Positions 19,172-45,474 of a DNA stretch of 64,000 nucleotides are shown here, piece by piece. Position numbers and translations under genes: made by a program. The notes below the pieces were generated by a model. The model was not told where the DNA came from. It was given only the letters and a program-made list of their open reading frames with translations, and searched no databases. The first letter of the stretch is position 1. Every line of letters starts with the position of its first letter. This DNA comes from Mesorhizobium sp. ORS 3324 (GTDB lineage Bacteria; Pseudomonadota; Alphaproteobacteria; Rhizobiales; Rhizobiaceae): NCBI GenBank assembly GCA_000824825.2, contig LM655199.1, positions 62,001 to 126,000 of the forward strand. The letters run 5' to 3'.

Positions 19172-21721
19172 ATGCTGCGGTGCTGCGCGTTCCTTGCAGC
19201 CTTGATCTTCGTGGGCTTCACGACGTTCGAAGCCCATGCCGATCGCAGGGTTGCCTTTGTCATTGGCAATTCCGAATACCGCGACATCCCCGCCCTCAAG
19301 AATCCGGATAAGGATGCCGAGGATGTGTCGAACACGTTTCGGCTGGCCGGCTTCGACGTGTTCGTCGCCAAGGATCTCACCAAGCTTCAGTTCGAAGAGC
19401 AATTTCGCAATTATCTTGCCGCGGCGGACGGCGCCGATCTCGCCGTCGTCTACTATTCTGGTCACGGCTTCCAGATCGGCGGCGAGAATTTCCTCATCCC
19501 GGTCGACGCCTCGCTGAAGGACGCTGCCGACATCGAGGTCCAGGCGATCAAGCTCGACGACGTGCTGCAGCAATTGCGCGCCAAATCGAAGATCCAGGTG
19601 ATCATCCTCGATGCCTGCCGCAACAATCCGTTCCCGCGCAAGGACTACTGGCTGCGCGACCAGCTGATCGCGACCGGCGGCGCCGGCCTTGCGCAGGTGA
19701 AGAGCTCGCTGAACACGCTGATCGCCTTCGCCACCGAGCCCGGTGCGGTCGCCTATGACGGCACGGGTGCCCTCAGCCCGTTCTCGTCGGCCTTTTCGCG
19801 CCGCGCGCTGGCGCCGAACCAGGAGATCCGCACGGTGATGGCCGCCGTTCGCCGCGACGTGGTCCAGGCCACCGACGGCAAGCAGGTTCCCTGGGAGAAT
19901 TCCTCGCTGATCGACGAGGTGGTGCTGATGCGCCGCGCCAGCCGCCCGGCGCTGCCGCCGGTGCTGGAGAAAGTCGTGCCGTCGGGTGTCGGTCCCGTGG
20001 CGCTCGACCTGCCGGAGCCGGTCGATGTCGATGGCGGCGCGGTCACCGTCAGCGTCGAAAGGCCGCCGGCGCTAGGCCGCCTGATGCTCGACGGCAAGCC
20101 TGTCGCGGCGGGCGAGCCGATCGCCGGCAAGGACCTGCCGCGCCTCCAGATGGATGTGCCGAAAGGCGCAGGCGCGCAGGAGGAGGTCGACATGCTGGCC
20201 TATGCCACGCGCGACAATTGGGGCGGCGAATCCCACGGCATCCTGGTGTTCCGGGTCAAGAACGGCGAGGGCGCCGAAGGCAAGCAGCTTGTGGCCTCGC
20301 TCGAGGCCGAGCAGAAGCAGCAAGTGCTGGAGCGCGGCATCCACATCACCGGCGCCGCCGAGGCGATCGAAAACCGTGACGTCAGTGTGCCAGTCGGCGT
20401 CGGCCCTGTGCCTCTGAAGCTGGACTTCCCGACCAAGGATCCGGCGGTCAGCCTGAAGGTCGCCAGCTATCCGGCAACGGGTACGCTGTCGCTGCCGGAT
20501 CGGACCTTGTCCCCGGATTCCAGTCTGATGGCCGATGAGGTCGACCATCTGCGCTACGAGCCGCAGATCGGCGCCGCCAAACCACTGATAGTAGGTTTCG
20601 AAATCCGGGCCGACAATACGTCGCCCAAGCCGGCAACGATGAAGCTGTCGCCAAGCGTCGAGCCCTGCGACAGGGAGGCCGGCGAGCCTCTCGACCTGCA
20701 GGGCGTTGTGCCCGGCCTGCTGCCGAACGAAATCAGCAGCAACGCCGTGGATGTCTGCCGGGCGGCGGTGAAAGCCTATCCGGATGTCGCCCGCTTCCGC
20801 TACGAGCTCGGGCGGGCGCTGCTTGCTGTCGGCAAGGTCGAGGAGGCGAAGAAGGCGATCCAGGAGGCCGCCGACAAAGGCCATGTCCGCGCGGTGTTCG
20901 AGCTTGGCTACCTCAACGCGACGGGAACGGGAATGCCCGCCAACCGCAAGCAGGCCAACAGCTTCTACGCCGCGGCGTCCGACAAGGGCGATCCCTATGG
21001 GATGACGTCCTGGGGCCGCGCCTTATTCAATGGCTACGGCGTAGAGCGCGATACCGGCAAGGGGCTCGACCTGCTGCTCAAGGCGGCTGCGATGGGCCAC
21101 ACCTACGCCATGAACGATCTTGCAGCGATCTTCACCGAGGGCCGCAACGGCGTGCCTGCCGACCCGGCCCGCGCTGTCGCATTCCTCAAGGCAGGTGTGG
21201 AGCGGCAGGACATGTATTCGATGAACCTGCTCGGCCGCAATTATCTCGCCGGTACCGGCGTCGAGAAGGATCCGAAGCAGGCGCAGGCGCTTTTCCAAAA
21301 GGCGATGGATCTCGGCCAACCTTACGCCCCCGGCAGCCTTGCGCGCATGTACAGGGACGGCATCGGCGTAGAGCGGGATCTTGCCGAGGCGCAAAAGCTG
21401 TTCGAGCTGGCGACCGGTCGCGGCGATCAGTCCGCCGCATACGATCGCGCGGCTCTGGAACTGCAGCGGGGCGACAAGGCGGACCAGTCTGTCGCCGTGC
21501 GTTACCTCGCTTTCGCGGCCGCGCTCGATCTTCGCAACGAAATTCCGGATGCAAAGGCCACGTTGGCGAAGTTCGGAGCCAAGGCGAAAACCGCAGCCCT
21601 GAAACAACTGCGTGGGGAACTCAAATCGAAGATTTCGGCGGGCGGCTCGGTGGACGACCAACTGGTCAAGACGGCCAGGGCGGTCTGGGAACAAGCCAAT
21701 CCGCGTCGGGACTTGTTCTGA
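19172..21721 (+). CDS. Exported caspase-fold (peptidase C14) protein with Sel1 repeats
   Basis: 849 residues. A Sec signal peptide (about 1-23, ending AHA) precedes a caspase-like domain at 25-250. The catalytic dyad is His98 in YYSGHGFQ and Cys149 in LDACRNNPF, both intact. A central region follows with two SVERP/VGVGPVPLKLDF-like beta segments. From about residue 540 there are at least five Sel1-type tetratricopeptide-like repeats (for example AVFELGYLNATGTGMPANRK and NLLGRNYLAGTGVEKDPKQA). Bacterial proteins of this class are predicted Arg/Lys-specific proteases or scaffolds, and the signal peptide puts it in the periplasm. It heads a rightward pair with the lipoprotein gene and borders the T6SS locus. 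Its target is unknown. Confidence 0.88.
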   Translation: MLRCCAFLAALIFVGFTTFEAHADRRVAFVIGNSEYRDIPALKNPDKDAEDVSNTFRLAGFDVFVAKDLTKLQFEEQFRNYLAAADGADLAVVYYSGHGFQIGGENFLIPVDASLKDAADIEVQAIKLDDVLQQLRAKSKIQVIILDACRNNPFPRKDYWLRDQLIATGGAGLAQVKSSLNTLIAFATEPGAVAYDGTGALSPFSSAFSRRALAPNQEIRTVMAAVRRDVVQATDGKQVPWENSSLIDEVVLMRRASRPALPPVLEKVVPSGVGPVALDLPEPVDVDGGAVTVSVERPPALGRLMLDGKPVAAGEPIAGKDLPRLQMDVPKGAGAQEEVDMLAYATRDNWGGESHGILVFRVKNGEGAEGKQLVASLEAEQKQQVLERGIHITGAAEAIENRDVSVPVGVGPVPLKLDFPTKDPAVSLKVASYPATGTLSLPDRTLSPDSSLMADEVDHLRYEPQIGAAKPLIVGFEIRADNTSPKPATMKLSPSVEPCDREAGEPLDLQGVVPGLLPNEISSNAVDVCRAAVKAYPDVARFRYELGRALLAVGKVEEAKKAIQEAADKGHVRAVFELGYLNATGTGMPANRKQANSFYAAASDKGDPYGMTSWGRALFNGYGVERDTGKGLDLLLKAAAMGHTYAMNDLAAIFTEGRNGVPADPARAVAFLKAGVERQDMYSMNLLGRNYLAGTGVEKDPKQAQALFQKAMDLGQPYAPGSLARMYRDGIGVERDLAEAQKLFELATGRGDQSAAYDRAALELQRGDKADQSVAVRYLAFAAALDLRNEIPDAKATLAKFGAKAKTAALKQLRGELKSKISAGGSVDDQLVKTARAVWEQANPRRDLF

Positions 21722-23401: not shown

Positions 23402-25813
23402 TCAAAGCGCCGCCTGGACCGAGCTTATGAGGGCCGTGACGGCCTGCTTGTATTTAGCGAATTCCGGCGAGGTCTGGCGGATTTCGGTCGTGGTCGTCTG
23501 CTGCCCCTGATCGGACGCCATGCGGATCACCTTCTGCCCCATCTTCCGCTCGGCCCAGTCGATGACGTAGCTGGCCGTCTTGCCGGTGAGGAACGGATTG
23601 GCCTGGATCACGGCCGATCCCAGCACGGCGCTCAATTGCGTCGAGCCCTGCGCCGCCAGCACCTGGGCTGCGCCTTCCATGCCGAGGAAATGGCAGAGAT
23701 AGAGCCGCCCGGCGGTGATCTGGTGGCCGCGGGCGCGCAGATAGGCTTCGCCCTCGCGCGCAAGGTTGCGCACCATCTCGCGCGACAGCGTGGCGTCGTA
23801 GCGGAGCGCGAGCAGGTCGGTGGTCGACAGCGTGCGGGCAAGATCTGGCCGGTAGGTATTCATCATCCGGATCCAGGTCTTGGAGATGAACTGGCCGGCG
23901 CCCGTCGCCGAGGAAAGCGGGTTCTTGGCCCGCGCGCTGCCGCCGCTTTCGACATGGACGATGCGGTCGGTCAGCGTCTCGACGGCGGAATCGCCCGAAC
24001 CACCAGACGCATAGGTGGCAACCGTGGTGACCGTCCCCAGCGGGTCGATTGCTTCCCCGTTCTGGTAGAGTTCGAAATGCAGATGCGGGCCCGTCGAAAG
24101 CCCCGTGGTGCCGACATAGCCGATGACGTCGCCGGCCTTCACCTTGGTGCCGACGCCGCTCGCGATGGCGAATTTCTGCATATGGGCGTAGCGCGTCTCC
24201 CGCCCGTTCGCGTGAGAAATCTTCACCAGATTGCCATAGCCGCCGCCATCGCCCTGGAAGCTGATCTCGCCGTCGAAGGCCGCCACGACCGGGGTGCCGA
24301 TGGGAGCCGCCCAGTCCACGCCCTTGTGAATGCGAACTGTTTCGAGGATCGGATGCTTGCTCGGCCCGAAGGTCGAGATCATCACCCCGGCGACCGGCGT
24401 GACCATGCCGTTGGTCACGGTTAGCGATCGAACCTCGTCATTGCCGGTGACGCATGCATACTGGCCGTTGTTCTGCTGGTAGACGAAACAGTCGAGGTTC
24501 TTCTCCGTGCCCTGGACGCCGACATAGAGGACCCGCCCCGACGATGCGTCCTGACCACGCGGCGTCTGCGAATAGATCAGCACCAGGCGCTGGTCCTCGC
24601 TGGCGAAAGCGTCGAGGTCCTGTCCCCTGGACAGATACATGATCGCTTCGCCGATCACGCTGGTCGGGACCTTGTTGCGCGCGGCCGTCGAATAGATCGC
24701 ATCGAGCAGGCGATATTGCCGCTTGGGTCCGCCTTCGTCGGCGGCGCCTGAATAGTTGAACAGGTCCTCGCGCACCCAGGGGTCTACGCCCGACACGAAC
24801 GCGCCCGCCGCGTTGCGCGTCAGCGTGCCGACATAGACGTTCCTGGCATAGATCGAGACCTGCATCAGCGACATGGTCGTCGCCTGGCGGCTCGGCCTGA
24901 AGCCGCGCATGGCCACCACATAGCCCGCCTCCAGGCCGTCGCGGTTGAACAGCGCCTTCAGCGCCTCACCGGCAAGCTTCGCGTCGTCGGCGGAGAAATG
25001 CGCCTCGGCGACGACGCTGTCCAGGCTGCGGTCGTTGAGGATCTTCACGAAGCTATCCTCGGTCGCCTCGAAGCGCTGGTACTCGCCGGTGACGGTCGCA
25101 ACCGTCGTGTTGTTCTCGACTTCGGTCTTCTTGAAAGCGGGAAGGGCGGCTTCGCCCTGATCGACGGTCTCACCCCAGCCGGCCTCCGGATCGTCGGCAT
25201 CCGCCTTGGATGCCGAAGCGGCTGGCGGGCCGCTCTCATCGGGCACCGGCTGGAGGTCGTTCGCCAGATCGCCCTGCTGATCGTCCGCTGCAGCCGGGGC
25301 GGGCGGGGCCACTTGCTGATTGTCAGGCGCCGGCACCGGAGATTTTGACGCGGTCTGCCGCTGCGCCTGGAAGAAGGCGAAATCCTCCTGCGTCGACGGG
25401 ATCGTCGTCATGAATTTCTCGCTGGCGCTCAGCATCACGTCGGAGAGAATTTCGATCTGCGGCGAGGCGCCGGAACTGTCGAGCTCGGCCGGTCGCGCGA
25501 CGGTGTGGCCCTTGGTTGCGGTGTCAGCGTCCGGCGCCAGGGTGATCCACATCGGGTCGCCGGCAAGGTCGATGATGGCCGGCACATAGACCGCCGCATC
25601 GGGCGGCACGTCCTCCATGCCTTCGACGGGATGCAGCTCCTCGTCCTCGTCACCGAACGACCAGTAGTCGCGTGTGAGGTAGAAACCCGTGGCTGCCGAG
25701 ACGACGGCGAGCGCGGCAACACCGGACAGAACCCAGGCCCAGAGCTTGCGCCGGCGCTCGGCCAGGCGCGCCTGCTTCTTCAGCTTGAAGCTCGTGTCGA
25801 TGCTGTGCGTCAC
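23402..25813 (-). CDS. Membrane-anchored M23 endopeptidase with C-terminal lytic-transglycosylase-like domain
   Basis: 803 residues from a GTG at 25813 that overlaps the preceding stop (GTGA), so translation is coupled. One N-terminal membrane helix (about 25-47) anchors it in the inner membrane with the rest in the periplasm. After a Pro/Ala-rich region, a LytM-type M23 domain lies at about 485-600. Zinc ligands are His496 and Asp500 (RIHKGVDW) and His579; His544 and His577 (GPHLHF) are the other conserved histidines. From about 611 to 760 a lysozyme-fold transglycosylase-like domain follows, with candidate catalytic Glu622 in IVHVESGG and the motif SSATGAGQFISKTW. It could therefore cut both peptides and glycan strands. 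It is the last gene of the kinase/phosphatase/TssM operon. Confidence 0.85.
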   Translation of the reverse strand: MTHSIDTSFKLKKQARLAERRRKLWAWVLSGVAALAVVSAATGFYLTRDYWSFGDEDEELHPVEGMEDVPPDAAVYVPAIIDLAGDPMWITLAPDADTATKGHTVARPAELDSSGASPQIEILSDVMLSASEKFMTTIPSTQEDFAFFQAQRQTASKSPVPAPDNQQVAPPAPAAADDQQGDLANDLQPVPDESGPPAASASKADADDPEAGWGETVDQGEAALPAFKKTEVENNTTVATVTGEYQRFEATEDSFVKILNDRSLDSVVAEAHFSADDAKLAGEALKALFNRDGLEAGYVVAMRGFRPSRQATTMSLMQVSIYARNVYVGTLTRNAAGAFVSGVDPWVREDLFNYSGAADEGGPKRQYRLLDAIYSTAARNKVPTSVIGEAIMYLSRGQDLDAFASEDQRLVLIYSQTPRGQDASSGRVLYVGVQGTEKNLDCFVYQQNNGQYACVTGNDEVRSLTVTNGMVTPVAGVMISTFGPSKHPILETVRIHKGVDWAAPIGTPVVAAFDGEISFQGDGGGYGNLVKISHANGRETRYAHMQKFAIASGVGTKVKAGDVIGYVGTTGLSTGPHLHFELYQNGEAIDPLGTVTTVATYASGGSGDSAVETLTDRIVHVESGGSARAKNPLSSATGAGQFISKTWIRMMNTYRPDLARTLSTTDLLALRYDATLSREMVRNLAREGEAYLRARGHQITAGRLYLCHFLGMEGAAQVLAAQGSTQLSAVLGSAVIQANPFLTGKTASYVIDWAERKMGQKVIRMASDQGQQTTTTEIRQTSPEFAKYKQAVTALISSVQAAL

Positions 25814-26220
25814 GGGCTGTTTCCGGTCAGGAAATAGGTCCAGCGCACCTGCTCGAGCGTGTCGACCTCGACGAAGCGCGCCGCGATATGGCCGCGCTGC
25901 CAGCATTCGTCGACGCCGCGGATCGAGAAGCGGCGCCGGTCGATACACATCTCGGTCGATCCGGCGAGGATCGCGTGGCCGAAAACGTCAGTGGCGTAGA
26001 TGTAGATGTAGCGGTTGGTCAGCTCCTCGCGGATGACGTTGACGCACTGGTTGGCGCCGATGGTCCACCAGCCGTCGGTCTGGTCGGCGTCGTCGACCTT
26101 CTGTCCGACGGCGAGGTTGACGACGTCGAGCGTCTGGTTGCAGACGGTGAATTCGGCATGGGCGCGGTCGGTCAGGAAGATCGAGAGCAGCGCCGCGCCG
26201 ACAAGCGCGGCAAATCTCAT
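25810..26220 (-). CDS. DUF1036 family exported protein
   Basis: 136 residues from the ATG at 26220; a longer frame adds 26 unrelated residues. A Sec signal peptide ends at AHA/EF (about residue 22). The mature domain (FTVCNQTLDVVNLAVGQKVD onward) is DUF1036, a small periplasmic beta-rich domain with conserved cysteines and Trp, function unknown. It lies 90 bases after ppkA, and its stop overlaps the start of the M23/transglycosylase gene by 4 bases. A role in handling or folding that large periplasmic enzyme is a reasonable guess from the coupling. Confidence 0.85.
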   Translation of the reverse strand: MRFAALVGAALLSIFLTDRAHAEFTVCNQTLDVVNLAVGQKVDDADQTDGWWTIGANQCVNVIREELTNRYIYIYATDVFGHAILAGSTEMCIDRRRFSIRGVDECWQRGHIAARFVEVDTLEQVRWTYFLTGNSP

Positions 26221-26310
26221 CGGGTCAGGCAGAATGAGCCATCCACACCTCTTGCGTGGCGGCGGCTCGAACAATGAACGCGGGCGGCGGAGTTCCATCG
26301 GCGTCCATGT

Positions 26311-28995
26311 CTATCCGCCGAGGCGGAAATACTTGGCGGTGGCGGAGAACTGGGAACCGTCGGCCGCGATCTCCTCGAGGATCTTGGGCAACAGCTCCGA
26401 GGCCGGCATCGGCTGCGAGAACATCGCAGCCTGGATGTCCTTGGGCCCGGTGATCGCCAGCATGATCTGCGGCACCGCCTTGCCGGCCGCCTTGTCGGCG
26501 TCGGCGAGACCGATAGGGAAGTTGAACGTCGCCTTGTCCGCCTGCGCCACCATGCGGTCGTCGAGGTTGAAGGCGATGCCCTTGTGGTCGATCAGCATTA
26601 CGTTGGAAACGAGCCCGCCGTGCGTCACCAGCGTGCCGCTGATCGGCGAGCCGTCCGGCACGGACGTCCGGTCGAGAACGAGCTGCGGCCTTTCGGCCCC
26701 GCTCCGGTCGAGGAAACGCAGGAAGCTGGTCACCTCGCATTGCGGCGGGTCGATGAGGCGAACACTGATGTCTGGCTCGAGATGGAATTTCGACTTGAAG
26801 TCGTTGAGCAACTGCTCGAAGGGCTGCACCGCCGTCGCGAAGCCTTCGATCGCGGCGGCGCTGTCCGTTGCCGATGTCAGCGTCGCATAGAAGCAGTCGC
26901 CGCCGCTGAAGTCGCGCACCCAGGAGGCGCGCTGCGCCAGTTCGTCGGGTTTCTTTGCCGGTGGCGGAACCACGGGCTTCGGGAGGTTGATGGCGACGTC
27001 GGTGTTCTGAGGTTGCTTGTTGGCAGGCGGTGCCTGCGGCAGTGGTGCCGGTTGTTTCGACGCGCTCGGCGTTGTCGGCGGGCTGGCCGGCGTCTTGGAC
27101 GCTGCCGGCTGGCTGGAAGGCGGCGTCGGCGGCTGGTTTTCCGGAGCCTGAGGCGAGGCGGTCTTCGTCTTGGTCAACTTGGACAGGGCATCGACGAGGT
27201 CCGACGCGTTTGGCTTGGTCGCCGGCGGTTTTGCTTCCGGTGCCGGAGTGCTTTCCGCTTTCGTCTGGCTCGGCTCCGATGCCTTGATCGCCGGCGTCTG
27301 GCTGGCTGATTGCGCAGGTTTCTGACTTTCCGCAGCCTTCGGCAAGGGAGCGAGCGTCGGCGATTTTTGGATCGGTGGCTGCGTGGGTTCGACCTCGGTC
27401 GACTGCGGGACTTGCGCCTGATGGTTGTCAGCCAGGCTCTCGGGCTGGAGGGCGGGCTGCGTCTTTTGAGTGGGCTGCGGTTGGGCCTCCGTTGCCGGTG
27501 GCATCGTGGGCCTGGGGGGCGGAACGGGAGTTTCGGCGGACGGTGATTCTGTATTCTGTTCGGTATTGGCTTCCGCCTGCTTTTGGACGGGTGGTGCCTT
27601 GTCCTGCGTTTGCGGCGGAGCGGGTAGGGCGGGCTTCGCCGGCTCAACGGTGGCTGAGTTGTCCGCTTTCGGTGACTGCGGCTGAGGTTCGGCCGGCGCT
27701 TGCGGCTGAGGCTTTGGTGCTGACGGCTGAGGCTTCGATGCCTCTGCCACCGGCTTGGGTGCTTCCGCTGCAGGTTTTGCTGCCGGCTTCGGCGTGAGAG
27801 GTTCGGGTTTTTCCATGGCGGGCGGAGGCGTCAAGGCGCCGCTGAAATAGACGCCTGCCGCCGCCAGGACTGCCAATACCGCGACGCCGCCTGCTATTGC
27901 CGGAATCCGCGAAGCCTTGCGCCGCGCAGGTGGCGTGGGCGTGCCGGCCGGAGCAGCCGCCGGCGTAGGCCGCGGCTCCGACAGATACGCCGGTCGCACA
28001 TGCGCAACGAAGCGCTGCTCGCCGGGAACGGTCGCAGTCGGGGGACTTGAGGTCGGCAACGCGGTCCAGCCGGCGCGCGGCAAGCCCGAGCGCTCGCGCG
28101 GAGCAAAAGATGCAGGCGGCGGCAAGGTCGCGTCGAGGTCCTCGTCGCGCGTTGCCCTGGCGATCTCGGCCATGCTTGCCGGCCGGTCGCGCGGATCCGG
28201 CTGCAGCATCGCTTCGATGAGCGCGCGGAAATCGGGATCGATATCGGAAAGGTCCGGCACGGTCCGGCGCTTCTCGACGACCTCATACTGCGAGCCGCTC
28301 ATGTCGAGCGGCTTGCCGCGCAGCGCGGCGGCCAGCACCAGTCCGAGGCTGTAGATGTCGGACTGCTCGCTGACCTCGCCGCCGTAGAGGCCGAGCTGTT
28401 CGGGCGAGACGTAATTGTATTTGCCGGCGAACTTTCCGCCGATCAGCGTCTCGCCGCCGACATTCGCCGAGCGCGCGATGCCGAAATCGATGATCTTGGC
28501 CCGCTCCACCCGGCCGCCCGGCAGGATGATGTTGTCGGGCGAGAGGTCGCGGTGAACCGCGCCGGCCTGATGCACGGCGCTCAGGCCGGATGCGAGGCGA
28601 TGGCAAAGCCGGCGCACATCCGGCGGTGCCATCGGGCCGCGGCGCATCACGTCGAACAGCGACTGGCCGTCCACGAACTCCATGGCGAGGTAGGGGCGGC
28701 CGATCCCCGGATCGATGGTGAAGACGTGGTAGCGCACCACCGCGTCATGCGACAGGTGGTTGAGGATCGACGCTTCCTTGCGAAACAGGGACAGGATCGT
28801 CTGGTCGCGGGCGAATTCGGGCAGCACGATCTTGATCGCGACATGGTCGCCTGTCTGAATGTTGTGGCCGCGATAGACCTCGCCCATCCCGCCGGACGCG
28901 ATGCGCTCGTCAAGCTCGTATATGCCGCTGAGCTGCGTGCCGACGCCTGCATAGGCGAGGTTCGGCGAAATCCGCGTCTTGTCGTCGTCGCTCAT
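26311..28995 (-). CDS. ppkA: PpkA-type Ser/Thr protein kinase with large C-terminal domain
   Basis: 894 residues from the ATG at 28995, which overlaps the pppA stop (ATGA). A Hanks-type kinase domain occupies about 25-290: Gly loop ASGGMGEVYRG, Lys55, catalytic Asp150 in HRDLSPDN, Asp170 in DFGIARS. One membrane helix follows near 400-420. Then comes about 260 residues of Pro/Ala/Gln/Lys low-complexity sequence and a globular C-terminal domain of about 200 residues that should be periplasmic. In T6SS, PpkA phosphorylates Fha in the threonine phosphorylation pathway that triggers assembly. Here it is cotranscribed with the cognate phosphatase, TssM, TssL and an FHA protein. Confidence 0.9.
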   Translation of the reverse strand: MSDDDKTRISPNLAYAGVGTQLSGIYELDERIASGGMGEVYRGHNIQTGDHVAIKIVLPEFARDQTILSLFRKEASILNHLSHDAVVRYHVFTIDPGIGRPYLAMEFVDGQSLFDVMRRGPMAPPDVRRLCHRLASGLSAVHQAGAVHRDLSPDNIILPGGRVERAKIIDFGIARSANVGGETLIGGKFAGKYNYVSPEQLGLYGGEVSEQSDIYSLGLVLAAALRGKPLDMSGSQYEVVEKRRTVPDLSDIDPDFRALIEAMLQPDPRDRPASMAEIARATRDEDLDATLPPPASFAPRERSGLPRAGWTALPTSSPPTATVPGEQRFVAHVRPAYLSEPRPTPAAAPAGTPTPPARRKASRIPAIAGGVAVLAVLAAAGVYFSGALTPPPAMEKPEPLTPKPAAKPAAEAPKPVAEASKPQPSAPKPQPQAPAEPQPQSPKADNSATVEPAKPALPAPPQTQDKAPPVQKQAEANTEQNTESPSAETPVPPPRPTMPPATEAQPQPTQKTQPALQPESLADNHQAQVPQSTEVEPTQPPIQKSPTLAPLPKAAESQKPAQSASQTPAIKASEPSQTKAESTPAPEAKPPATKPNASDLVDALSKLTKTKTASPQAPENQPPTPPSSQPAASKTPASPPTTPSASKQPAPLPQAPPANKQPQNTDVAINLPKPVVPPPAKKPDELAQRASWVRDFSGGDCFYATLTSATDSAAAIEGFATAVQPFEQLLNDFKSKFHLEPDISVRLIDPPQCEVTSFLRFLDRSGAERPQLVLDRTSVPDGSPISGTLVTHGGLVSNVMLIDHKGIAFNLDDRMVAQADKATFNFPIGLADADKAAGKAVPQIMLAITGPKDIQAAMFSQPMPASELLPKILEEIAADGSQFSATAKYFRLGG

Positions 28996-29831
28996 CCCTC
29001 GGCCCTTGTTCTGGTCTGAACCGATTGGAGCGATCCGTTGCGTCCGTCGCCGATCCTCACCAGCACAACGGTGACATTGTCCGTTCCGCCGCGCGCCAGC
29101 ACCATTTCCAGCAGCCTCTCGCACGCCGCCTGCGGCGGCGAGGACTTAACCGCCGCTTCGATCTCAGCGTCGCTGACATGGGCGGTTAGTCCGTCGGTGC
29201 TCAGGACGAAAATATCGCCCGGCATCAGCTCGCCTTGCTGGAAATCGATCTCGAGCTCATCGCTGACCCCGACGGCATGGGTGATGACATTGCGGCGTGG
29301 CCATATCAACGCTTCCTCGGCGCTGATCATGCCGCGGTCGAGGAGCTCCTGGACTTCGGTATGGTCCCTCGAAATCTGCGAGATCGCGCCGCCGCGTACC
29401 AGATAGATGCGGCTGTCGCCGGCCCACAGGCCGGCGAACCGCCCGTCCATGGCGAGCAGCGCGGCGAATGTCGAGCCGATGGTGATGCCGCGCGATCGCG
29501 ATATGTTGCGGATCTCGGCATTGGCGCGGCTCAGCCGGTCCTCGAAGCGCGCGCGAAGGTCCGGCGCCGAGCTGGCGATGCCGATCGTCGCCAGATGATC
29601 GACGATGCTGGCCGAAGCGACTTCCCCCGCCTCGTGTCCGCCCATCCCGTCGGCCACCACCCAAAGGCCAGCTTGCGGCTCGACGAGGTAGTTGTCCTCA
29701 TTGAGGTCGCGGACACAGCCCTTGTGGCTCACGCCGAAGCTCTCGATGGGAAGGGCGACAGTGCTCAAATTGCCACCAAGCGCTTCGCGAGCGTCCTCTG
29801 TGACGAACCATGGGCCGCGTGCCCATGCCAC
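28992..29831 (-). CDS. pppA: PppA-type PP2C Ser/Thr phosphatase
   Basis: 279 residues. All PP2C motifs are present: RDLNEDNY (Glu45, Asp46), VADGMGGHEAGE (Asp61), GSTFAALL, WAGDSRIYL, STDGLT and GGTDNVTVVLV. In T6SS, PppA reverses PpkA-dependent phosphorylation of Fha and so allows disassembly and relocation of the machine. No membrane segment is seen, so it is cytosolic. The gene lies 72 bases after tssM and its stop overlaps the ppkA start by 4 bases, ensuring balanced synthesis of the opposing enzymes. The start at 29831 is the first in frame; a GTG 10 codons in is possible. Confidence 0.92.
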   Translation of the reverse strand: MAWARGPWFVTEDAREALGGNLSTVALPIESFGVSHKGCVRDLNEDNYLVEPQAGLWVVADGMGGHEAGEVASASIVDHLATIGIASSAPDLRARFEDRLSRANAEIRNISRSRGITIGSTFAALLAMDGRFAGLWAGDSRIYLVRGGAISQISRDHTEVQELLDRGMISAEEALIWPRRNVITHAVGVSDELEIDFQQGELMPGDIFVLSTDGLTAHVSDAEIEAAVKSSPPQAACERLLEMVLARGGTDNVTVVLVRIGDGRNGSLQSVQTRTRAEG

Positions 29832-29903: not shown

Positions 29904-32900
29904 TCAGAACGCCTTCGGACAGCTGAACCCGGACAGCGCCGGGAGCAGGAGGGGATTGGCCCCCGAAACGGTCTGCATCGTGTAGGCGACGTCGCGCCCC
30001 CCGATCACGAAGCGTGCCTCGGTGTTTCCGCCATTGCTGGTGACGCTCGCCTTGTCCAGCAGGCGCTTCAAGGCCCATGGCCCCTGGAATTTGAGGGCCG
30101 ATTCGCGGCCCGGCATTTGCGGTGTCAGGCTGAGGCTTGCGGATCCGGAAGCGGCGCCGCTCGGCCATGTCACCGTGCTCGGCGCGTTGCCGGCCTGCGT
30201 GCTCTCAACGGTCTGTCCGTCGACGTCGAGCACCGCGCTGTCGGCCTCGCTGTTCAGCGAGGTAGGCGTGAAGGTGATCGCGACCTGCGGCACCGAACCG
30301 CCGGACGGGAAGAAGGCGCTGCGGATTTCCGCCGCCGACTGGAACGCCTTCAAGGTCGACTTGGCGAGGTCGCGGCCGGAGCGGGTATCCTGCTTCCAGG
30401 TCCATTCCTGGCCAGTCATATCGATCAGCGGCGCCAGGTTCTGCGCGAAGAACCGGTCCATCAGCCCGCCCGGCGCGAACAGCTTGGCGAAATCGGCCAT
30501 GGAGATTTCCTGCGTGCTGTCACCGGCGAAGGGATAGTGGCCGTTGACGGCCTCCTCGCAGGGGCGCGTGACCGTCTCGTCGAGCGTCTGGTTGAGGTTG
30601 GCGACCGAGGTCTCCGCGACGTTGCCTTCGAATTCGTCCGCCGCCGCATCGACCATGCGCGCAAGCGGCTTGGGCAGGCGCGAGGCATTGGCGCGCATCG
30701 TCGAAATCTGCAGCTTTAGGTTCGCGTTGACGCGTTCCGTTTGCGAGGGGACATCCGCCGCCAGCTTCACGCTCTGGTAGATATCGTGGAAATTCTGCGT
30801 CAGCGCATCGAGCGGGCGGCGCCCGGCGGAGCCGCTCACCAGTGCCTGAAACGGCCTGAACTGCGCCTCCACCGTGGCGCCGGCATTCCGGGTGGCGGAC
30901 GAGCTTGTGCCGGCACGGCTTTGCGACTTGCCGCCGGCGATCTGCAGGCCGATGCGGGCCAGGCCCTTGGCCATGCCGGCGGGGTCTTCGCTCGCGGAGG
31001 CCGTGCTGCCCTGTGTCAACGCGGTTTCGTCGGCGATCGCCGTGAACAGCCGATCCAGCGGCGAGTCCGGCGAAGCGGCGGCGGAGAGCGCGATATATTG
31101 CGGCTTGTCCTTCAGCATCGCCTTCAGCTTCAGCTGGTCGAGCGCGCCGTTCCAGGCGGAAGCGAATTCCTTGCCGTAGCGGTCGATGAGCTCGGGTCCG
31201 AGCTTGGGCAGGTCCTGGCCGATGCCGCCCTGCTCGCCGCCGCCGCCGAGAACCCATTGGTCGTCGACGAGCATCTGCGCCATGCGCGAGAGCTGCGGCA
31301 GGTAGAAGCCGTTGAAGCCGGCCCGGGTGTAGAGGCCGGGAACGCGAAGGTCGGAAAGCTCGCTGCCGTCCATGCGTTCGAACAGCAGCTGCGCCTCCGG
31401 GCCGGCTTTCGCGGAGACGGAAAAGTCCTCCAACCTCGCGCCGTAGACCGCCGACTTGATCAGCGCCGATGCGCGGTCGGCAAGGCTCATGCGACCGAGC
31501 GAGCGCTGCGCCGCCTCGACCAGCGGCTGGTTGAGCTCGAAAACCGGATCGTAAGCATCGTCGAGCGCGAGCATGGCGCGCAGATGCTTTTCGAGCTGCG
31601 CGCGGCCTTCGCGGTTGTTCTCTCCCGGATAGCGGTTTTCCTCCCAATCCTGATTCATCCAGGAGACGACCAGCTCGTCGTCGACCTTCGGCGCCTTGCC
31701 GCCCAGCATGAGATAGATCTTCAGCGGCTCGTAGAGCGCGATCGGATCGGCCATCCTGGCCTGGATCGTCCGCTCCGCCTGCACCAGCAGACGGGAGCGG
31801 AAGCTTCGCTCCAGCGCCTGCCGGTAAGCGGTTTTGGATGCTGACAGAAGCCTCTCCCGCTGGCTGAGCCCGAACGTTTCCTCGATCGGCTTCGTCTGGT
31901 CTGCGGTCTCGAACCCGGCCGGCAGGTTGCGCAATTGGTCGAGCGGGCCGATGACGTTTTCGAGATCGACGTCGGTCACCGTCGAGCTCTTGAGCAGCGA
32001 ATCCGCGCTGTCGCGATAATGCGCCATCGCCTGCCTGGTGGAGTCGATCAGCGACCGGTTGGCCGCGAAGCTGAGGCCAAGCACGCCGAGCGCCGCACAA
32101 GCCGCCAGCCCGATCGCGGCAAGGCCCGCAAATCTGGCCAATGCGGCGCGCCGTTCGGCGGTCCTGTCGAACGAGACCCATCCGGCCTCTGGGAAGATCA
32201 CCTTCGCCAGAAGATCATGCAGGAAGAAGCTTTTGCCGGTGCCCGAAAGATGCGCCTGTGAAGCGCTGCCGAAACTGCGGCCGATCGCGCCCAGCAGCTG
32301 ATCGATAGGCGTTCCTTCCTGTGTGCCCGAGGAGAAATAAAGCCCGCGCAGGCTGACATTCACTTGCGCCCGCGACGGGTCGAACAGGCTGGTGACGAAA
32401 CGCACCACGCGGGTCCGCAGCGCCCCGAACTGCGCCGGAAAGCCGAAGAGCGCGATGCGCGCCACCGGGTCGGTCTCATCCTGCAGATGGTCGGCGATCT
32501 CCTCTGCCAGCTGCCTGGCCAATGCGTCGAACTCGGCCGCAGCCTCGCCGACCATGTTCCTGTTGCGGTCAGTGGTCCGGAAGGTCGCGCCCCACACTTT
32601 GCGCCGGCGGGCTTCTTCGAAATCGCCGAAATAATCCATGAAGCCGGCGACGAGGTCCGCCTTGGTGAAGAGCAGGTAGACCGGAAACTGGATCTTCAGC
32701 GTCTCGTGCAGCTCCCGCAACCGGCTTCTTATTTCGGTGACATGCGCGTCGAGCTGCTGGTCGTCGAGGCCGATCAGATCGGCAAGGCTGATGGCGAGGA
32801 TCACGCCGTTGATCGGCTGCCTGGTGCGATACTTCTTGAGCAGTCCGAGGAAGGCGAGCCAGCTCGCCCTGTCGCGCTCGCGGTCCGACTCCTGCGTGGT

Positions 32901-33416
32901 ATAGCGGCCGGCGGTATCGATCAGCACCGCATCGTCGGTGAACCACCAGTCGCAGGACCGCGTGCCGCCGATCCCGGCCACCGGCTGCGCCTTGCCCGAG
33001 CCGGCAAGCGGAAACTTCAGCCCCGAATTGACCAGCGCCGTCGTCTTGCCGGCGCCCGGCGGACCGATGATGATGTACCAGGGGATCTCATAGAGGAAGT
33101 TGCGCTTGCCGCTCGACCGCTTCAGCGTCGCAATCGCCTCGCCCATGCGCGCCTCGAGCAGCTGTGAATCGTCGTTGCGCTCGTCGCTGTGCGCAATGGC
33201 CTTTTCGAGCGCCTTCTGCGCCTTGTGTCCCTGCCAGAAGCGGACGCCGTAGAAGAGCGCCAAGATGGCAACGGTCACGCCGATGATCGCTGCTCTCAGC
33301 CAGACAGGTCCGAGCGGACGGGTGTCTGCATAGCGGATCAGCGGCCCGGCGTACCAGACCGCCGCCGAGAACCCGGCAAGCGCGAGCAGGCTGAAGATCC
33401 TGAGCGCCCAGCGCAT
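29904..33416 (-). CDS. tssM: TssM (IcmF) inner-membrane protein, second copy
   Basis: 1170 residues, normal for TssM. Two N-terminal membrane helices (about 5-25 and 41-60) precede a cytosolic GTPase-like domain. Its Walker A is GPPGAGKTT (118-126) and Walker B LIDTAGRY (165-172). A third membrane helix lies near 415-440 and a large periplasmic region follows to the C-terminus. TssM spans the envelope and joins TssL and TssJ to form the T6SS membrane complex. This copy differs clearly from the one at 47028-50570. It sits in the phosphosignalling operon directly after a TssL-OmpA gene, with no TssJ gene beside it. Confidence 0.93.
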   Translation of the reverse strand: MRWALRIFSLLALAGFSAAVWYAGPLIRYADTRPLGPVWLRAAIIGVTVAILALFYGVRFWQGHKAQKALEKAIAHSDERNDDSQLLEARMGEAIATLKRSSGKRNFLYEIPWYIIIGPPGAGKTTALVNSGLKFPLAGSGKAQPVAGIGGTRSCDWWFTDDAVLIDTAGRYTTQESDRERDRASWLAFLGLLKKYRTRQPINGVILAISLADLIGLDDQQLDAHVTEIRSRLRELHETLKIQFPVYLLFTKADLVAGFMDYFGDFEEARRRKVWGATFRTTDRNRNMVGEAAAEFDALARQLAEEIADHLQDETDPVARIALFGFPAQFGALRTRVVRFVTSLFDPSRAQVNVSLRGLYFSSGTQEGTPIDQLLGAIGRSFGSASQAHLSGTGKSFFLHDLLAKVIFPEAGWVSFDRTAERRAALARFAGLAAIGLAACAALGVLGLSFAANRSLIDSTRQAMAHYRDSADSLLKSSTVTDVDLENVIGPLDQLRNLPAGFETADQTKPIEETFGLSQRERLLSASKTAYRQALERSFRSRLLVQAERTIQARMADPIALYEPLKIYLMLGGKAPKVDDELVVSWMNQDWEENRYPGENNREGRAQLEKHLRAMLALDDAYDPVFELNQPLVEAAQRSLGRMSLADRASALIKSAVYGARLEDFSVSAKAGPEAQLLFERMDGSELSDLRVPGLYTRAGFNGFYLPQLSRMAQMLVDDQWVLGGGGEQGGIGQDLPKLGPELIDRYGKEFASAWNGALDQLKLKAMLKDKPQYIALSAAASPDSPLDRLFTAIADETALTQGSTASASEDPAGMAKGLARIGLQIAGGKSQSRAGTSSSATRNAGATVEAQFRPFQALVSGSAGRRPLDALTQNFHDIYQSVKLAADVPSQTERVNANLKLQISTMRANASRLPKPLARMVDAAADEFEGNVAETSVANLNQTLDETVTRPCEEAVNGHYPFAGDSTQEISMADFAKLFAPGGLMDRFFAQNLAPLIDMTGQEWTWKQDTRSGRDLAKSTLKAFQSAAEIRSAFFPSGGSVPQVAITFTPTSLNSEADSAVLDVDGQTVESTQAGNAPSTVTWPSGAASGSASLSLTPQMPGRESALKFQGPWALKRLLDKASVTSNGGNTEARFVIGGRDVAYTMQTVSGANPLLLPALSGFSCPKAF

Positions 33417-33441: not shown

Positions 33442-34944
33442 TCACAGCGTCTCCTCCTTCGGGATCATCACGTCGACGCGGCGGTTCTTGGCGCGGCCGT
33501 CCGGCGTCGCATTGTCGGCGATCGGCTCGTCCTCGCCCTTGCCGTCGACACTTATCCGCGACGGGTCCTTGAGCGCCTTCGCCATCATCTCCTGGACGGC
33601 CTTGGCGCGGGCAACGGACAGGTCGAAGTTGGATTTGAACTGGCTCGACTTCTTCGGCTTCACATTGTCGGTGTGGCCGACGATGCGGATCGGCCCGGGC
33701 TCGGCATCGAGCGCGGCGGCGATGCCTGCCGCGATGGGCTGGAATTCCGGCTTCAGCTCCGCCTGGCCGGACGCGAAAAGAAGCTGATTGCTGACCTCGA
33801 CGACGATGAAATTGCCTTTCGTGCCGACCGTCAGCCCGCCGCCGGCGATCTCCTTGGCGAGCGCTGCGCTGATGCGGTCTATCTGGGTGGTGGTGGCAGT
33901 AGTTGTGGCGGCTGGGGGCGGCGGCGGTGCGGCTTCCGCGGGTTCAGCCGGCGCGGCCACACTGGCGCGCTCGATGGTGACCGGCGTTGGCGGATTGAGC
34001 GCCAGAAGCTCGCCGGCGGTCGCGTCGCCTTCATTGGTGATGAGCACCCGCAGCGCGAAGAATGCCCCCGTCACCAGCGTCGCCGCGGCGGCCGCCACCG
34101 CCCAAAGCGGCAGCCGGGCCCTTGGCTTTGACAGCACCGCCGCCATGCCTTGCCAATGGGGCGAGATGTCGTCCCCGGCACGCGGCCTGAAATAGCGGAT
34201 CGTATCATAGACGTCGCGCCGCACGCGTTCGAGATTGTCATGTTCGCCGGCCCGCCCGCGATACTGGCCTTCGAACCCGAGCGACAGGCAGGCATGCATC
34301 AGCTCGAGCAGGTCGTGATGGCCTTCCGGGCTGCCCAGGATATTGTTTAGCGCCGCATAGAAACCGGCGCCGGTGGGTTTGGTGTGGAAGACCTTTGCCA
34401 CCAGGCTGTGCCCGCTCCAGCCGCCGTCCTTCGGCCAGGGCAGGTTGCCGACGAGATCGTCCGCTGTCTCGCAAAGCACGAATTTCGCGATTCTGCCGTC
34501 CTCCTCGGCAATGCCGGCCTTCGCTATCTGCCGGTCGAACGTTTCGATCGCTTGGGCGATATGCTCCGCAAGAGGTGTCGCCTGCCGCTCGACCGGCATC
34601 AGCCGCAACTGGCCGAACAGCATCAGCAAAGGTGCCGCCGCAGCGAGGATCGGATTTGCGGCGGCGTATTTCACGCCATCCGTGGCATCGAGCAGGATTT
34701 CCTGTTGCAGCGCCGGTGTCGGCGCAGCGGGAGGGGCACCCTGATAGATCATGGTTCCGGACGACCAGCCGGTCGGGATCTGCCGGCCGACGCCGGGGTC
34801 GAATACCGTCGATTCCCTTCCGGCCGATGGAGCCTGCCCACCCGGAGCAGCGCCTACCGGCGGCGCAGGCGAGCGTTGTCTTGGCCGTGGCGCGCGGATC
34901 ACGGTCTTGTCCGCCGGCCGGGAGGGATCGTCCTTCGAGCTCAT
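33442..34944 (-). CDS. tssL: TssL (DotU) fused to OmpA domain, second copy
   Basis: 500 residues. An unstructured Pro/Ala-rich N-terminus of about 90 residues precedes the DotU/TssL cytoplasmic domain (about 95-265, NPILAAAAPLLMLFGQLR). One membrane helix follows at about 275-300. The C-terminal periplasmic OmpA domain (GQAELKPEF, then RIVGHTDNVKPKKSS and GRAKNRRVDVMI) binds peptidoglycan and gives the complex a fixed point in the wall. It ends 25 bases before tssM, the usual tssL-tssM order. It is a paralogue of the 444-residue TssL at 50572 with a longer N-terminus. Confidence 0.92.
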   Translation of the reverse strand: MSSKDDPSRPADKTVIRAPRPRQRSPAPPVGAAPGGQAPSAGRESTVFDPGVGRQIPTGWSSGTMIYQGAPPAAPTPALQQEILLDATDGVKYAAANPILAAAAPLLMLFGQLRLMPVERQATPLAEHIAQAIETFDRQIAKAGIAEEDGRIAKFVLCETADDLVGNLPWPKDGGWSGHSLVAKVFHTKPTGAGFYAALNNILGSPEGHHDLLELMHACLSLGFEGQYRGRAGEHDNLERVRRDVYDTIRYFRPRAGDDISPHWQGMAAVLSKPRARLPLWAVAAAAATLVTGAFFALRVLITNEGDATAGELLALNPPTPVTIERASVAAPAEPAEAAPPPPPAATTTATTTQIDRISAALAKEIAGGGLTVGTKGNFIVVEVSNQLLFASGQAELKPEFQPIAAGIAAALDAEPGPIRIVGHTDNVKPKKSSQFKSNFDLSVARAKAVQEMMAKALKDPSRISVDGKGEDEPIADNATPDGRAKNRRVDVMIPKEETL

Positions 34945-35338: not shown

Positions 35339-36424
35339 CTACTTCTGCTTGCTCGCCTTGGCGTAGGCTTCGCTGAAATAGGCGAGGAAGACGTCGAGCA
35401 TGCCGTTCTCGTGCGTCTCCTCCATGGTGCGCCACGTGCTGACGAGGGCATCCCAGGCCTGACTTTTCTTGGATGAGAACGAAGCCGGCGGCAGTTTCTT
35501 GGCGATCGCCTCGGGCGACAGGTCGTCAAGCAGCCTGGAGAGCGCGGCCTGCATGGCCGCGTAGGTTGCGAATTCATGCGTCTTGAGGTCCCGGAAGGCG
35601 TCCTCGACGCTGCGCGCGGCGTCGAGATAGCCGGCCCTGCGTTTGGCGAACATGATCTCCAATATGTCGTCGGTGCCGGGAACGAATTTCAGCGGATTGT
35701 TGTTCTCGGCGCCGATCATCGTGCGATGCGCGCTCTTGGCGAGCACCTTGGCCGCCGCGCGCGCCTTGAGCAGCAGCGACAATTGCTCGACCGTAGTTCT
35801 GAGCACCGAGCCGATCTCGGTAGCCACCTCATGCGGATCGCGCGACTGAAGCAGGTCCGGCGAAATGCCGGCGGACCTCGCGATGTCGCGCAACAGCGCG
35901 TCGGCGTCCGCGAGACGGCCAGCTGGAGCTGCCGGGGCCGGTGCTGACTGCAGCGCCGAGGACGTCGACACCGGCGCTCCCTGCACGGGGCGCTGCTCCC
36001 TCCGACCGAAGAACGGCTCATTGCCCAACTCCAGCGGCCTGCCCGTCGATGGGGGCAGCTCTCGTTGTGTCGATCCTGTCCTGGTCTGCGGATGTCCGGC
36101 GGCAATACGCTCTTCATCGATCGAAACCGAAATGACATAGCGGCCGATCAGCAGCCGGTCGCCATGTGCCAGCCGGTGCGGGCCGGCCATGCGCTGGCTG
36201 GAGCCGTTGATGAAGGTGCCGTTGCGCGAGATGTCGTAGAGCCAGAAGGCGCCCGCCTGGAAGCGGACCTCGCAGTGCCGGCCCGAGATGAACTTGTCCG
36301 GATCGGCGAGCGTCCAGTCGCAATTCTCGCGGCCGATCTCGAAGCTGCGGTCGCGCGCGGCATAGCTCGTCGCGTTGCCCGGGGGCAGCCTGTCGACATT
36401 GCTGATCTGGAGCGAGATGAACAT
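35339..36424 (-). CDS. tagH: FHA-domain protein of the T6SS phosphorylation pathway (TagH/Fha), second copy
   Basis: 361 residues. The N-terminal FHA domain (about 1-95) has the phosphothreonine-binding motifs GREN (31-34), SGRH (47-50) and NGTF (68-71). A Pro/Ala-rich linker follows. The C-terminal domain (about 170-340) is the TagH/Fha C-terminal region, with ENNPLKFVPGTDDILEIMF-like sequence. Fha binds phosphorylated partners after PpkA action and promotes T6SS assembly. It is the first gene of the second leftward operon and is divergent from vgrG. It is a paralogue of the 486-residue FHA protein at 53739, with a shorter linker. Confidence 0.9.
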   Translation of the reverse strand: MFISLQISNVDRLPPGNATSYAARDRSFEIGRENCDWTLADPDKFISGRHCEVRFQAGAFWLYDISRNGTFINGSSQRMAGPHRLAHGDRLLIGRYVISVSIDEERIAAGHPQTRTGSTQRELPPSTGRPLELGNEPFFGRREQRPVQGAPVSTSSALQSAPAPAAPAGRLADADALLRDIARSAGISPDLLQSRDPHEVATEIGSVLRTTVEQLSLLLKARAAAKVLAKSAHRTMIGAENNNPLKFVPGTDDILEIMFAKRRAGYLDAARSVEDAFRDLKTHEFATYAAMQAALSRLLDDLSPEAIAKKLPPASFSSKKSQAWDALVSTWRTMEETHENGMLDVFLAYFSEAYAKASKQK

Positions 36425-43995: not shown

Positions 43996-44377
43996 TGTTC
44001 GTCATCTGATCGCCGAGCAGTTGGATGTTCTTGCCTTCTGCCTTCACGTCCATCGAGCCGGGCGCAACGAACTCGGTCTTTCCTTGCGTGGTCGACGATA
44101 CTACGCCGCCGCCGGTGCCTTGGCTCGCCACATCAGGCGACGGCGCGCTCATGTAGTAGCTGCCCTTGATAGCGATCTTCTTGCCTTCGATCTTGACCGT
44201 TGACGTGGCGTCCGACAACCTGTCGGCGGAGCGGCCGAAATTCGGCAGCGGAACTGGCACAAACGGCGCCGGCGGTCCCGGCATCTTGCATACGTTGGGC
44301 ACGTCCGCAGGCGCCATATCCATGCTTCCCTCGGTTACCGGCGTCTTAGGTGGATTGACCCCAACGGAAACCATCAC
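43985..44377 (-). CDS. DUF4150 PAAR-like tip protein
   Basis: 130 residues. The sequence VSVGVNPPKTPVTEGSMDMA, then PDVPNVCKMPGPPAPFVPVP and PNFGRS, is the DUF4150 (PAAR-like) domain. The C-terminal part ends VDVKAEGKNIQLLGDQM-like (MDVKAEGKNIQLLGDQ). PAAR-like proteins form the sharp tip on VgrG and carry effectors. It is encoded directly before the candidate effector (11-base overlap) and directly after the ketosynthase-like gene (4-base overlap, ATGA). This places it at the centre of a loading module with DUF2169. The effector domain is separate rather than fused to it. Confidence 0.88.
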   Translation of the reverse strand: MMVSVGVNPPKTPVTEGSMDMAPADVPNVCKMPGPPAPFVPVPLPNFGRSADRLSDATSTVKIEGKKIAIKGSYYMSAPSPDVASQGTGGGVVSSTTQGKTEFVAPGSMDVKAEGKNIQLLGDQMTNNGS

Positions 44378-45474
44378 GCAGCCTTCCTTGGTGGGTTGGT
44401 AGGAAAGTCAAGCAGCGTAACCGCCCGCTGGCCGCCCTCGGAACTGGCCCAGAGCGCCGCCCGCGAGCCGTGACTGTAACCCTTGCTGGCGGCTGCGTGG
44501 GCGAGCGCCGCGAACAGGGGACCCGACGCCGCGCCGACATCGCCCCAGCAGTCGGCGGGATGCAGATAGTGGGTTGCGTCATCTGAAAGATGCTGAACTC
44601 GCAGGATTGCATAGACCAGCTCCTCGCTGCGGTAACGTTGCCCATTGAGATCGCAATAGGTATCAGTGATCTTGCGTCGGTCCCGGTCGATGGCGGGGCC
44701 AAGTCCAAGGAAGGCGGAACTCAGACCCTCGCCGACGCAAACCTCCCCCTCGCCGTGCCGCTTAATCGTAATCCGCTCGGGCGCGGTGCTGACTGCGGTC
44801 AGCCGGCCCAAGAGTTCCAGTCCCAGTTCTGATATCAGATTTCTGCGCGCCAGCAGGCAGGCGCCGGCCGCTTCTCCGGGGAAGAAGCCGTCTCGATTCA
44901 CCTCGGATTTGAGTTGCCCCGTTTCATCCATCCATTCCAGCGTTTGGTACTCCTGATAGGAATCCACGCCTGCTACCACCGCCAGATCCGTCTTGCCCTC
45001 ATCGATCGCCTTGGCGGCGACCCCAAACGCAAGCATCCCGGCAGCGTGTCCGTTGGCCAAGTACTGCACGCGTAGGTTTGTCGAGCCGAATCGTCCCATC
45101 ACGGCACGGCCGAGCATTTCGCCGACACCGTCCGGCAACCCCGGCCGCGGCTCCGGCGCACCGATGATCAGGAGCGTTCTCAGACCGGTGGCTGAAAGCG
45201 CCGCCGCTTCCGGCAGTTGCAGCAGCGTCGAAAGCAACAGTTCCTTCATACGGTCTGCCACCGGCATATCAGGACCCATGACCGCATCCTGTGCCAGACG
45301 TATGGGCTCGCCATTGCGGTCGACGAAAAACGGGTGCTCTGAGATTGCTGATATGCCCGCCCGCACCGCCGCTGCTGCGCTTTCGGCGCGCAGGCCAACC
45401 GGAGTGCGCGCTGCAAGGCCGGCCAGCCCGATTGGCGTCTGAGGGAAATATACTGCGACGTTTGGCGTGGACAT
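44374..45474 (-). CDS. Ketosynthase-fold protein of the T6SS effector cassette, catalytic Cys not seen
   Basis: 366 residues with the thiolase/beta-ketoacyl-synthase fold: DLAVVAGVDSYQ, then VNRDGFFPGEAAGACLLA (KS-like DGF-x-GE-x-AG) and HPADCWGDVGAASGP (KS-like GHxxGAAG). Where active synthases have their nucleophilic cysteine (ACxTG), this protein reads YLANGHAAGM (138-147), so the Cys appears replaced. The GH of the last histidine motif is also changed to CWGDVG. It is therefore probably not a condensing enzyme. It lies between the DUF2169 and DUF4150 genes, a recurrent position for such proteins. A role as a scaffold or acyl-binding adaptor for effector loading is inferred. Confidence 0.75.
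   Translation of the reverse strand: MSTPNVAVYFPQTPIGLAGLAARTPVGLRAESAAAAVRAGISAISEHPFFVDRNGEPIRLAQDAVMGPDMPVADRMKELLLSTLLQLPEAAALSATGLRTLLIIGAPEPRPGLPDGVGEMLGRAVMGRFGSTNLRVQYLANGHAAGMLAFGVAAKAIDEGKTDLAVVAGVDSYQEYQTLEWMDETGQLKSEVNRDGFFPGEAAGACLLARRNLISELGLELLGRLTAVSTAPERITIKRHGEGEVCVGEGLSSAFLGLGPAIDRDRRKITDTYCDLNGQRYRSEELVYAILRVQHLSDDATHYLHPADCWGDVGAASGPLFAALAHAAASKGYSHGSRAALWASSEGGQRAVTLLDFPTNPPRKAA

Follow-up and report, generated by a model that had tools for sequence, protein, structure and literature searches.

In Mesorhizobium sp. ORS 3324, a stretch of 64,000 nucleotides of contig LM655199.1 (the window) carries, among T6SS genes, an ORF whose product joins an M23 (LytM-type) peptidase domain to a lytic-transglycosylase (LT) domain. 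This protein, referred to as M23-LT, is probably a wall-opening enzyme dedicated to one alphaproteobacterial T6SS subtype, in which the LT domain would form the core and the LytM domain a tunable module. Passage of the T6SS through the cell wall is understood for few species; a review names TagX in Acinetobacter and the borrowed MltE in EAEC, and regards wall enzymes of this kind as uncommon in T6SS clusters (PMC10433429). The candidate for a dedicated wall opener presented here is conserved in the T6SS-positive members of a root-nodule genus (32/32 sampled). Its homologues form a natural series from an intact to an absent LytM domain, through which the division of labour can be tested directly. 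A lead to the function of DUF1036, a domain of unknown function, is obtained as well. Plasmid records label M23-LT proteins as 'M23 family metallopeptidase', 'peptidoglycan DD-metalloendopeptidase family protein' or 'hypothetical protein', names that leave the LT domain unmentioned and conceal it.

Domains and predicted fold of M23-LT

A first-pass annotation, made from the sequence alone, had described an ORF with a membrane anchor, a LytM-type domain and a lysozyme-fold segment with a candidate catalytic glutamate, and each of these elements has been borne out (Table 1). The gene is read from a GTG start codon at 25813, with the stop codon ending at 23402. The first 24 residues hold 8 K/R against 2 D/E and an acidic stretch follows the membrane helix, which would place the N-terminus in the cytoplasm and the remainder of the protein in the periplasm. 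M23 was the sole Pfam match (E 3.7e-34, 117.2 bits, above the curated cut-off of 28.7), while no VanY-type peptidase domain, CHAP domain, PAAR, VgrG or known effector domain was found among the Pfam matches; effectors without known markers exist. Matches in NCBIfam were all below the cut-offs and nearly all of the M23 type, and the assignment of the domain is based on Pfam, sequence matches in the PDB and residues.

Table 1. Position of M23-LT, its domains and residues, and its neighbouring genes in the window
Feature	Position	Strand	Remarks
M23-LT gene	23402..25813	-	803 aa; predicted inner-membrane anchored periplasmic wall hydrolase
M23-LT membrane helix	25673..25741	-	residues 25-47 (hydrophobic stretch about 23-47), hydropathy; single stretch
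M23/LytM domain	24041..24331	-	residues 495-591, Pfam PF01551
His496 codon	24326..24328	-	Zn ligand; invariant 93/93; Asn in L156-L159
Asp500 codon	24314..24316	-	Zn ligand; invariant in 93/93 Mesorhizobium-type sequences
His544 codon	24182..24184	-	M23 site; invariant in 93/93 Mesorhizobium-type sequences
HLH motif, His577 and His579 codons	24077..24085	-	both invariant 93/93
LT (gp144-like) domain	23543..23998	-	residues 606-757; sequence profile and fold
Glu622 codon	23948..23950	-	predicted catalytic acid/base; aligned with gp144 Glu115
M23-LT C-terminal tail	23405..23479	-	residues 779-803, after variable linker
DUF1036 gene	25810..26298	-	upstream partner; stop overlaps M23-LT start
PpkA-like Ser/Thr kinase	26311..29004	-	Pfam
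PppA-like PP2C phosphatase	28992..29831	-	Pfam; start uncertain
TssM (first of two)	29904..33416	-	
TssL with OmpA domain (first of two)	33442..34944	-	
T6SS FHA protein (first of two)	35339..36424	-	

Both domains have been found in one ORF in all 110 loci of the Mesorhizobium type (L001-L110), which count some genomes twice and hold 93 distinct sequences. One genome (G014) shows an in-frame TGA in one alignment, yet both domains lie in one open frame there as well. The HxxxD and HxH zinc ligands (H496, D500, H579), which the first-pass annotation had already named, are present in every one of the 93 distinct sequences, as are H544, H577 and E622. Both sites of the Mesorhizobium protein look active, and its LytM domain, with an intact zinc site, probably cuts peptide cross-links too.

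The LT domain has been recognised from sequence profiles and from its predicted fold. The phage transglycosylase family phrog_4067 (PHROGs) matches residues 617-792 with an E-value of 3.5e-22, a phmmer search of the PDB with one sequence returned phiKZ gp144 (3bkh, E 1.7e-7), and a 13-row profile gave the same protein at E about 1.3e-14. AlphaFold2, supplied with an alignment of 67 rows (the window's protein, 8 Mesorhizobium-type and 58 phage rows), yielded block-mean pLDDT values of 94-98 over about residues 616-755; the full-length model (30 close orthologues) had a mean pLDDT of 40.5, and the fold is claimed for the LT domain only. In a Foldseek search with the LT model, gp144 (3bkh, E 1.2e-5) was the sole PDB match with E <= 0.001. 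Superposition by VIA-align gave a Z of 16.8 over 150 residues (rmsd 2.6), followed by Cj0843 at about 12 and Slt and MltE at 9-10, a ranking which covers Foldseek's own matches, families outside that list being possible too. The position of Glu622 is unchanged across the 67 rows and corresponds to Glu115 of gp144, which we take to be the catalytic residue of that enzyme, and the SSATGAGQF motif, also noticed previously, occupies residues 634-642. Neither of the two results named beforehand as counting against the first-pass annotation, a fold unlike lysozyme over residues 611-760 and orthologues consistently lacking the glutamate, was obtained. The exact chemistry is a prediction, and the domain might be a hydrolytic muramidase, like the SLT domain of PrgK.

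Filing M23-LT under the Pfam SLT family (PF01464) was rejected, with no SLT match at E <= 1; across eight M23-LT homologues scanned, this family was below the cut-off in three and absent in five. Beyond the LT domain, the linker was modelled with low confidence and the last 20 residues as a helix with middling confidence. The tail (residues 779-803) is strongly conserved and may constitute a docking element.

Genomic neighbourhood and co-occurrence with the T6SS

M23-LT lies at the end of a TssM-PppA-PpkA-DUF1036 run, with PpkA, PppA, TssM and TssL upstream in the same direction and an overlap of 4 bases (GTGA) with the DUF1036 gene. This arrangement agrees with the earlier proposal that it shares a transcript with TssM, PppA and PpkA, and PpkA has been found near M23-LT in 108/110 Mesorhizobium-type loci, the exceptions (L006 and L055) being short contigs that end there. 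The proposal does not extend to the whole family, however, since three genomes (G381, G1045 and G1068) have M23-LT and DUF1036 at a distance from TssK, and the stretches examined around M23-LT there show no PpkA. Co-transcription with the kinase is therefore not constant, and the separate location argues against a fixed kinase link. A timing of wall opening by PpkA and PppA is possible and hypothetical.

The DUF1036 gene is the more constant neighbour, located beside M23-LT in 110/110 Mesorhizobium-type loci, near the divergent forms in 15 of 16 loci (the exception, L149, being an ORF running to the contig end) and near the M23-LT or LT homologue in all nine non-Mesorhizobium plasmid loci. None was detected at E <= 1e-3 in 23 T6SS stretches without the M23-LT gene; DUF1036 and T6SS neighbours were sought by tblastn with the window's own proteins, a search which distant versions can escape. 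An alternative start at 26220 would provide DUF1036 with a signal-peptide-like N-terminus, and this, together with its constant position, makes it the best partner candidate. The protein is probably periplasmic and a likely partner or regulator of M23-LT. No convincing relative of DUF1036 was found in the PDB. A second DUF1036 copy of the genome (G000:C30:13263-13601), outside the window and away from the T6SS, indicates that the domain has another use too. Genes for an ExbB/ExbD-type proton channel have been observed beside DUF1036 and the LT protein in Rhodobacterales plasmid loci (L345, L347, L348, L350, L351, L353 and L354), suggesting an energised envelope module; none were seen in the Thioclava stretch.

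The same gene pair could be read as a wall-degrading T6SS effector with DUF1036 as its periplasmic immunity protein, given that a DUF1036 of periplasmic type sits directly upstream of M23-LT, overlaps it and recurs nearby in every locus whose neighbourhood is complete. Double-activity wall effectors have been described, namely Tse4 (PMC10433429), TseP and WHIX, and M23 effectors beside VgrG genes have been proposed in Enterobacter (PMC10763514) and Acinetobacter (PMC5061870). As the closest relatives of the LT domain outside the T6SS are phage domains and a dual-activity effector is known in Tse4, such a role is conceivable. It is nevertheless quite unlikely for a protein which has an N-terminal membrane anchor with a cytoplasmic N-terminus, which gave no PAAR, VgrG or known effector domain in Pfam and which, in the genus, occurs in 32/32 TssK-positive genomes with a conservation like that of TssM, effector genes being usually patchy.

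Other features of the region have been recorded. A single sheath (TssC) and a single TssK are accompanied in the genome by two TssM, giving one T6SS tail with two membrane-complex sets; in the window, the second members of the pairs are TssM at 47028-50570, TssL at 50572-51906 and the FHA protein at 53739-55829 (first members in Table 1). A ketoacyl-synthase-like ORF (44374-45474) stands beside a DUF2169 ORF (45485-46597) in the T6SS region, and TsmK of the Acinetobacter T6SS has likewise been called ketoacyl-synthase-like (PMC10564176). A gene for a caspase-domain protein with Sel1 repeats (19172-21721, plus strand) adjoins the cluster, and caspase-like genes occur near several distant M23-LT loci as well.

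The distribution of M23-LT follows that of the T6SS, in line with the earlier suggestion of a T6SS-related role. A sample of 37 genomes of the genus contained the gene in 32, all of which have TssK (32/32), and the five genomes without the gene have no TssK either. In a sample of 397 genomes of the order, TssK was found in 67 and an LT-domain match at E <= 1e-10 also in 67; a protein with both M23 and LT domains occurred in 20 genomes, eight with the window's own type and 12 with more divergent forms, and TssK was present in 20/20. No TssK-negative carrier of the two-domain protein was found in the order sample. In the wider class, where the strongest matching places were followed, five further carriers (G678, G1045, G1068, G1118 and G1120) all have TssK. 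Fisher's test on the co-occurrence gave 2e-17 and 2e-6, values that are too optimistic because the genomes are related, and this kinship inflates the counts themselves. In the 73 loci that contain all six genes, M23-LT and TssM share on average 83% and 82% identity, respectively, with their counterparts in the window, and the correlation between the two (r 0.90) is descriptive only, as related genomes are compared with one reference. M23-LT behaves as a core gene, its conservation tracking that of TssM.

These counts bear on the reading of M23-LT as a general hydrolase of growth or shape, an RgsM-type polar growth paralogue merely located in the cluster. The genome encodes a second M23 protein that shares 33% identity with residues 233-600 of M23-LT, and RgsM of Sinorhizobium meliloti has a similar layout, with a membrane helix at 32-57, a long periplasmic part and an M23 domain at 508-606 (PMC6107284). 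A growth enzyme of this kind is very unlikely, since none of the five sampled genus members that lack TssK has the gene and the order sample gave no carrier without TssK. RgsM itself differs in being essential and having a role in polar growth, and the term 'lytic transglycosylase' does not occur in the main text of its description (PMC6107284).

The order sample contained 71 LT places, of which 50 were examined (20 with M23 and LT, 30 LT-only), the other 21 being weaker and lying in open frames of 253-476 aa. No T6SS genes were detected near 32 LT-only bacterial loci (30 from the order sample and two from the class) with the window's T6SS genes as queries. Among the best 80 of 291 phage LT loci, no M23 fusion was found within 3 kb flanks, a distance at which a far M23 domain in a long ORF escapes. 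Within the samples examined, the LT domain by itself is widespread in phage and prophage-like genes, and the pair of M23 and LT domains is a T6SS feature, with TssK in all carriers and the LT-only loci without T6SS genes. The family spans at least two orders of the Alphaproteobacteria (Hyphomicrobiales and Rhodobacterales), and annotated T6SS clusters with M23-LT or an LT-only form have been found in Sagittula, Phyllobacterium, Paracoccus, Rhodovulum, Leisingera and Thioclava.

The gene is not required by every T6SS, being absent from 47 of the 67 TssK-positive genomes of the order sample. Three of the genomes without it (G135, G170 and G207) have TssM, PpkA and PppA close to those of the window, and the T6SS stretches with TssM, PpkA and PppA of the window's type but no M23-LT gene include L335, L339 and L340, so a T6SS of this subtype can do without M23-LT. 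Twenty gene-free T6SS stretches (17 from genomes without M23-LT and three second T6SS of carriers) gave no M23 match and one weak LT match (L340, E 0.003), and three further ones (L365-L367) gave neither. Pfam revealed no replacement wall enzyme among eight unassigned ORFs of three gene-free clusters; five had no Pfam match and the others matched ImpA_N, VipA and DUF6931.

Divergent homologues and proposed mechanism

Twenty-five divergent homologues, gathered as sets of 13 and 12 proteins, show that the two domains are unequally conserved. The LT glutamate is present in 25/25, while the M23 site, judged by five positions, is intact in 15, degenerate in six and missing along with its domain in four. 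In L156-L159, D500 and H579 are retained, with H496, H544 and H577 replaced by N, Y and R, and two Paracoccus proteins have lost all five positions in the alignment. The M23 domain is missing from two Rhodovulum, one Leisingera and one Thioclava protein, with the preceding region partly left in three, and a Pfam scan of three of the four gave no M23 match. These four homologues and that of P. aminophilus belong to annotated T6SS clusters and have DUF1036 nearby; for P. aminovorans, DUF1036 was seen and the 15.5 kb around it names no T6SS gene.

In a tree of LT domains, from which identical rows had been dropped (124 to 114), 18 of 22 T6SS rows fall in a supported clade (99/94). L156-L159, with their decayed M23 domains, lie outside it with an unsupported placement, and a single clade was not rejected (p-AU 0.405); one or two acquisitions of the T6SS LT domains may have taken place. 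The M23 state changes about three times on the LT tree (bootstrap 2-4), with L316 labelled intact by assumption, and well-supported branches force only one change.

The first-pass annotation had portrayed a dual cutter of peptides and glycans. Its two domains stand, with both sites intact in Mesorhizobium, but as a general reading it is revised here, the two cutting activities being of unequal weight across the divergent forms. A stricter version, an obligate dual cutter whose two cuts are needed together and timed by PpkA and PppA, would fit the 93/93 distinct Mesorhizobium-type sequences with two intact sites and the kinase and phosphatase genes in the same run. It is unlikely, given that 10 of the 25 divergent homologues keep the LT glutamate with a degenerate or missing M23 site. 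Since the glutamate is kept in 25/25 and the M23 site is intact in 15/25, glycan cutting is probably the conserved core job of the family, and the LytM domain an optional module that would be tunable as in PrgK.

From the domains, fold, residues, gene linkage and co-occurrence set out above, we infer the enzyme activities of M23-LT, its location at the membrane complex and a role for DUF1036. The single N-terminal helix would anchor the protein in the inner membrane and leave its two enzyme domains on the periplasmic side. Beside the TssM/TssL complex, the gp144-like LT domain would cut glycan strands and so let the membrane complex and tail pass through the wall. The LytM domain of Mesorhizobium would probably also cut peptide cross-links; decayed or deleted elsewhere, it may be a tunable module that cuts cross-links, binds the wall or restrains the LT domain. 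DUF1036 would act as partner or regulator. A more tentative extension, which we offer as a conjecture, is that M23-LT and DUF1036 make up a portable module of two genes for wall opening in alphaproteobacterial T6SS, comprising an LT cutter, a LytM gate which could pass from active peptidase to inert regulator to nothing, and a DUF1036 protein that might restrain or target the cutter.

Comparison with known systems

The closest structural relative, phiKZ gp144 (3bkh), shares its fold and the aligned catalytic glutamate with residues 606-757 of M23-LT. It is a phage enzyme, to our knowledge without an M23 domain or a membrane anchor, both of which M23-LT adds. No description of this M23-LT protein was found in searches of open-access literature, most subscription papers being outside that scope. 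A T6SS locus of the Mesorhizobium type has been described (PMC8546570) in a paper whose main text contains neither 'M23' nor 'transglycosylase', and neither 'peptidase' nor 'hydrolase' appears in that of a paper on the T6SS of Rhizobium etli (PMC10215855).

Known T6SS wall openers had been characterised in the first-pass annotation as usually single-activity lytic transglycosylases. The known examples are few, and this description suits MltE and not TagX, which is a peptidase; cluster-encoded lytic transglycosylases are the exception in the T6SS according to a review (PMC10433429). TagX of Acinetobacter resembles M23-LT as an inner-membrane wall enzyme encoded in the cluster, and is needed for Hcp secretion; it differs in being a VanY-type L,D-endopeptidase with two predicted membrane helices and no LT domain (PMC5061870). 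A later paper words its activity as that of a lytic transglycosylase (PMC10564176). MltE of EAEC matches the role proposed for M23-LT, as a lytic transglycosylase for assembly of the T6SS membrane complex, but it is a housekeeping enzyme encoded outside the cluster and stimulated by TssM (PMC10433429). Tse4 of A. baumannii is similar by its description, combining lytic transglycosylase and endopeptidase in one T6SS-linked protein, and differs as a secreted effector acting on prey (PMC10433429).

In domain order, M23-LT is paralleled by PrgK of the pCF10 T4SS, in which a membrane helix is likewise followed by a LytM and then an SLT-type domain (PMC11323569). PrgK serves Gram-positive conjugation and has an extra C-terminal CHAP domain, and its LytM domain is degenerate, whereas that of the window's M23-LT is intact (PMC11323569). 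Its SLT domain is described as a muramidase related to phi29 gp13, a phage protein that also unites lysozyme-like and LytM domains, in the reverse order and with no T6SS (PMC11323569). The LytM and CHAP domains of PrgK have been reported to lower the activity of its SLT domain (PMC11323569).
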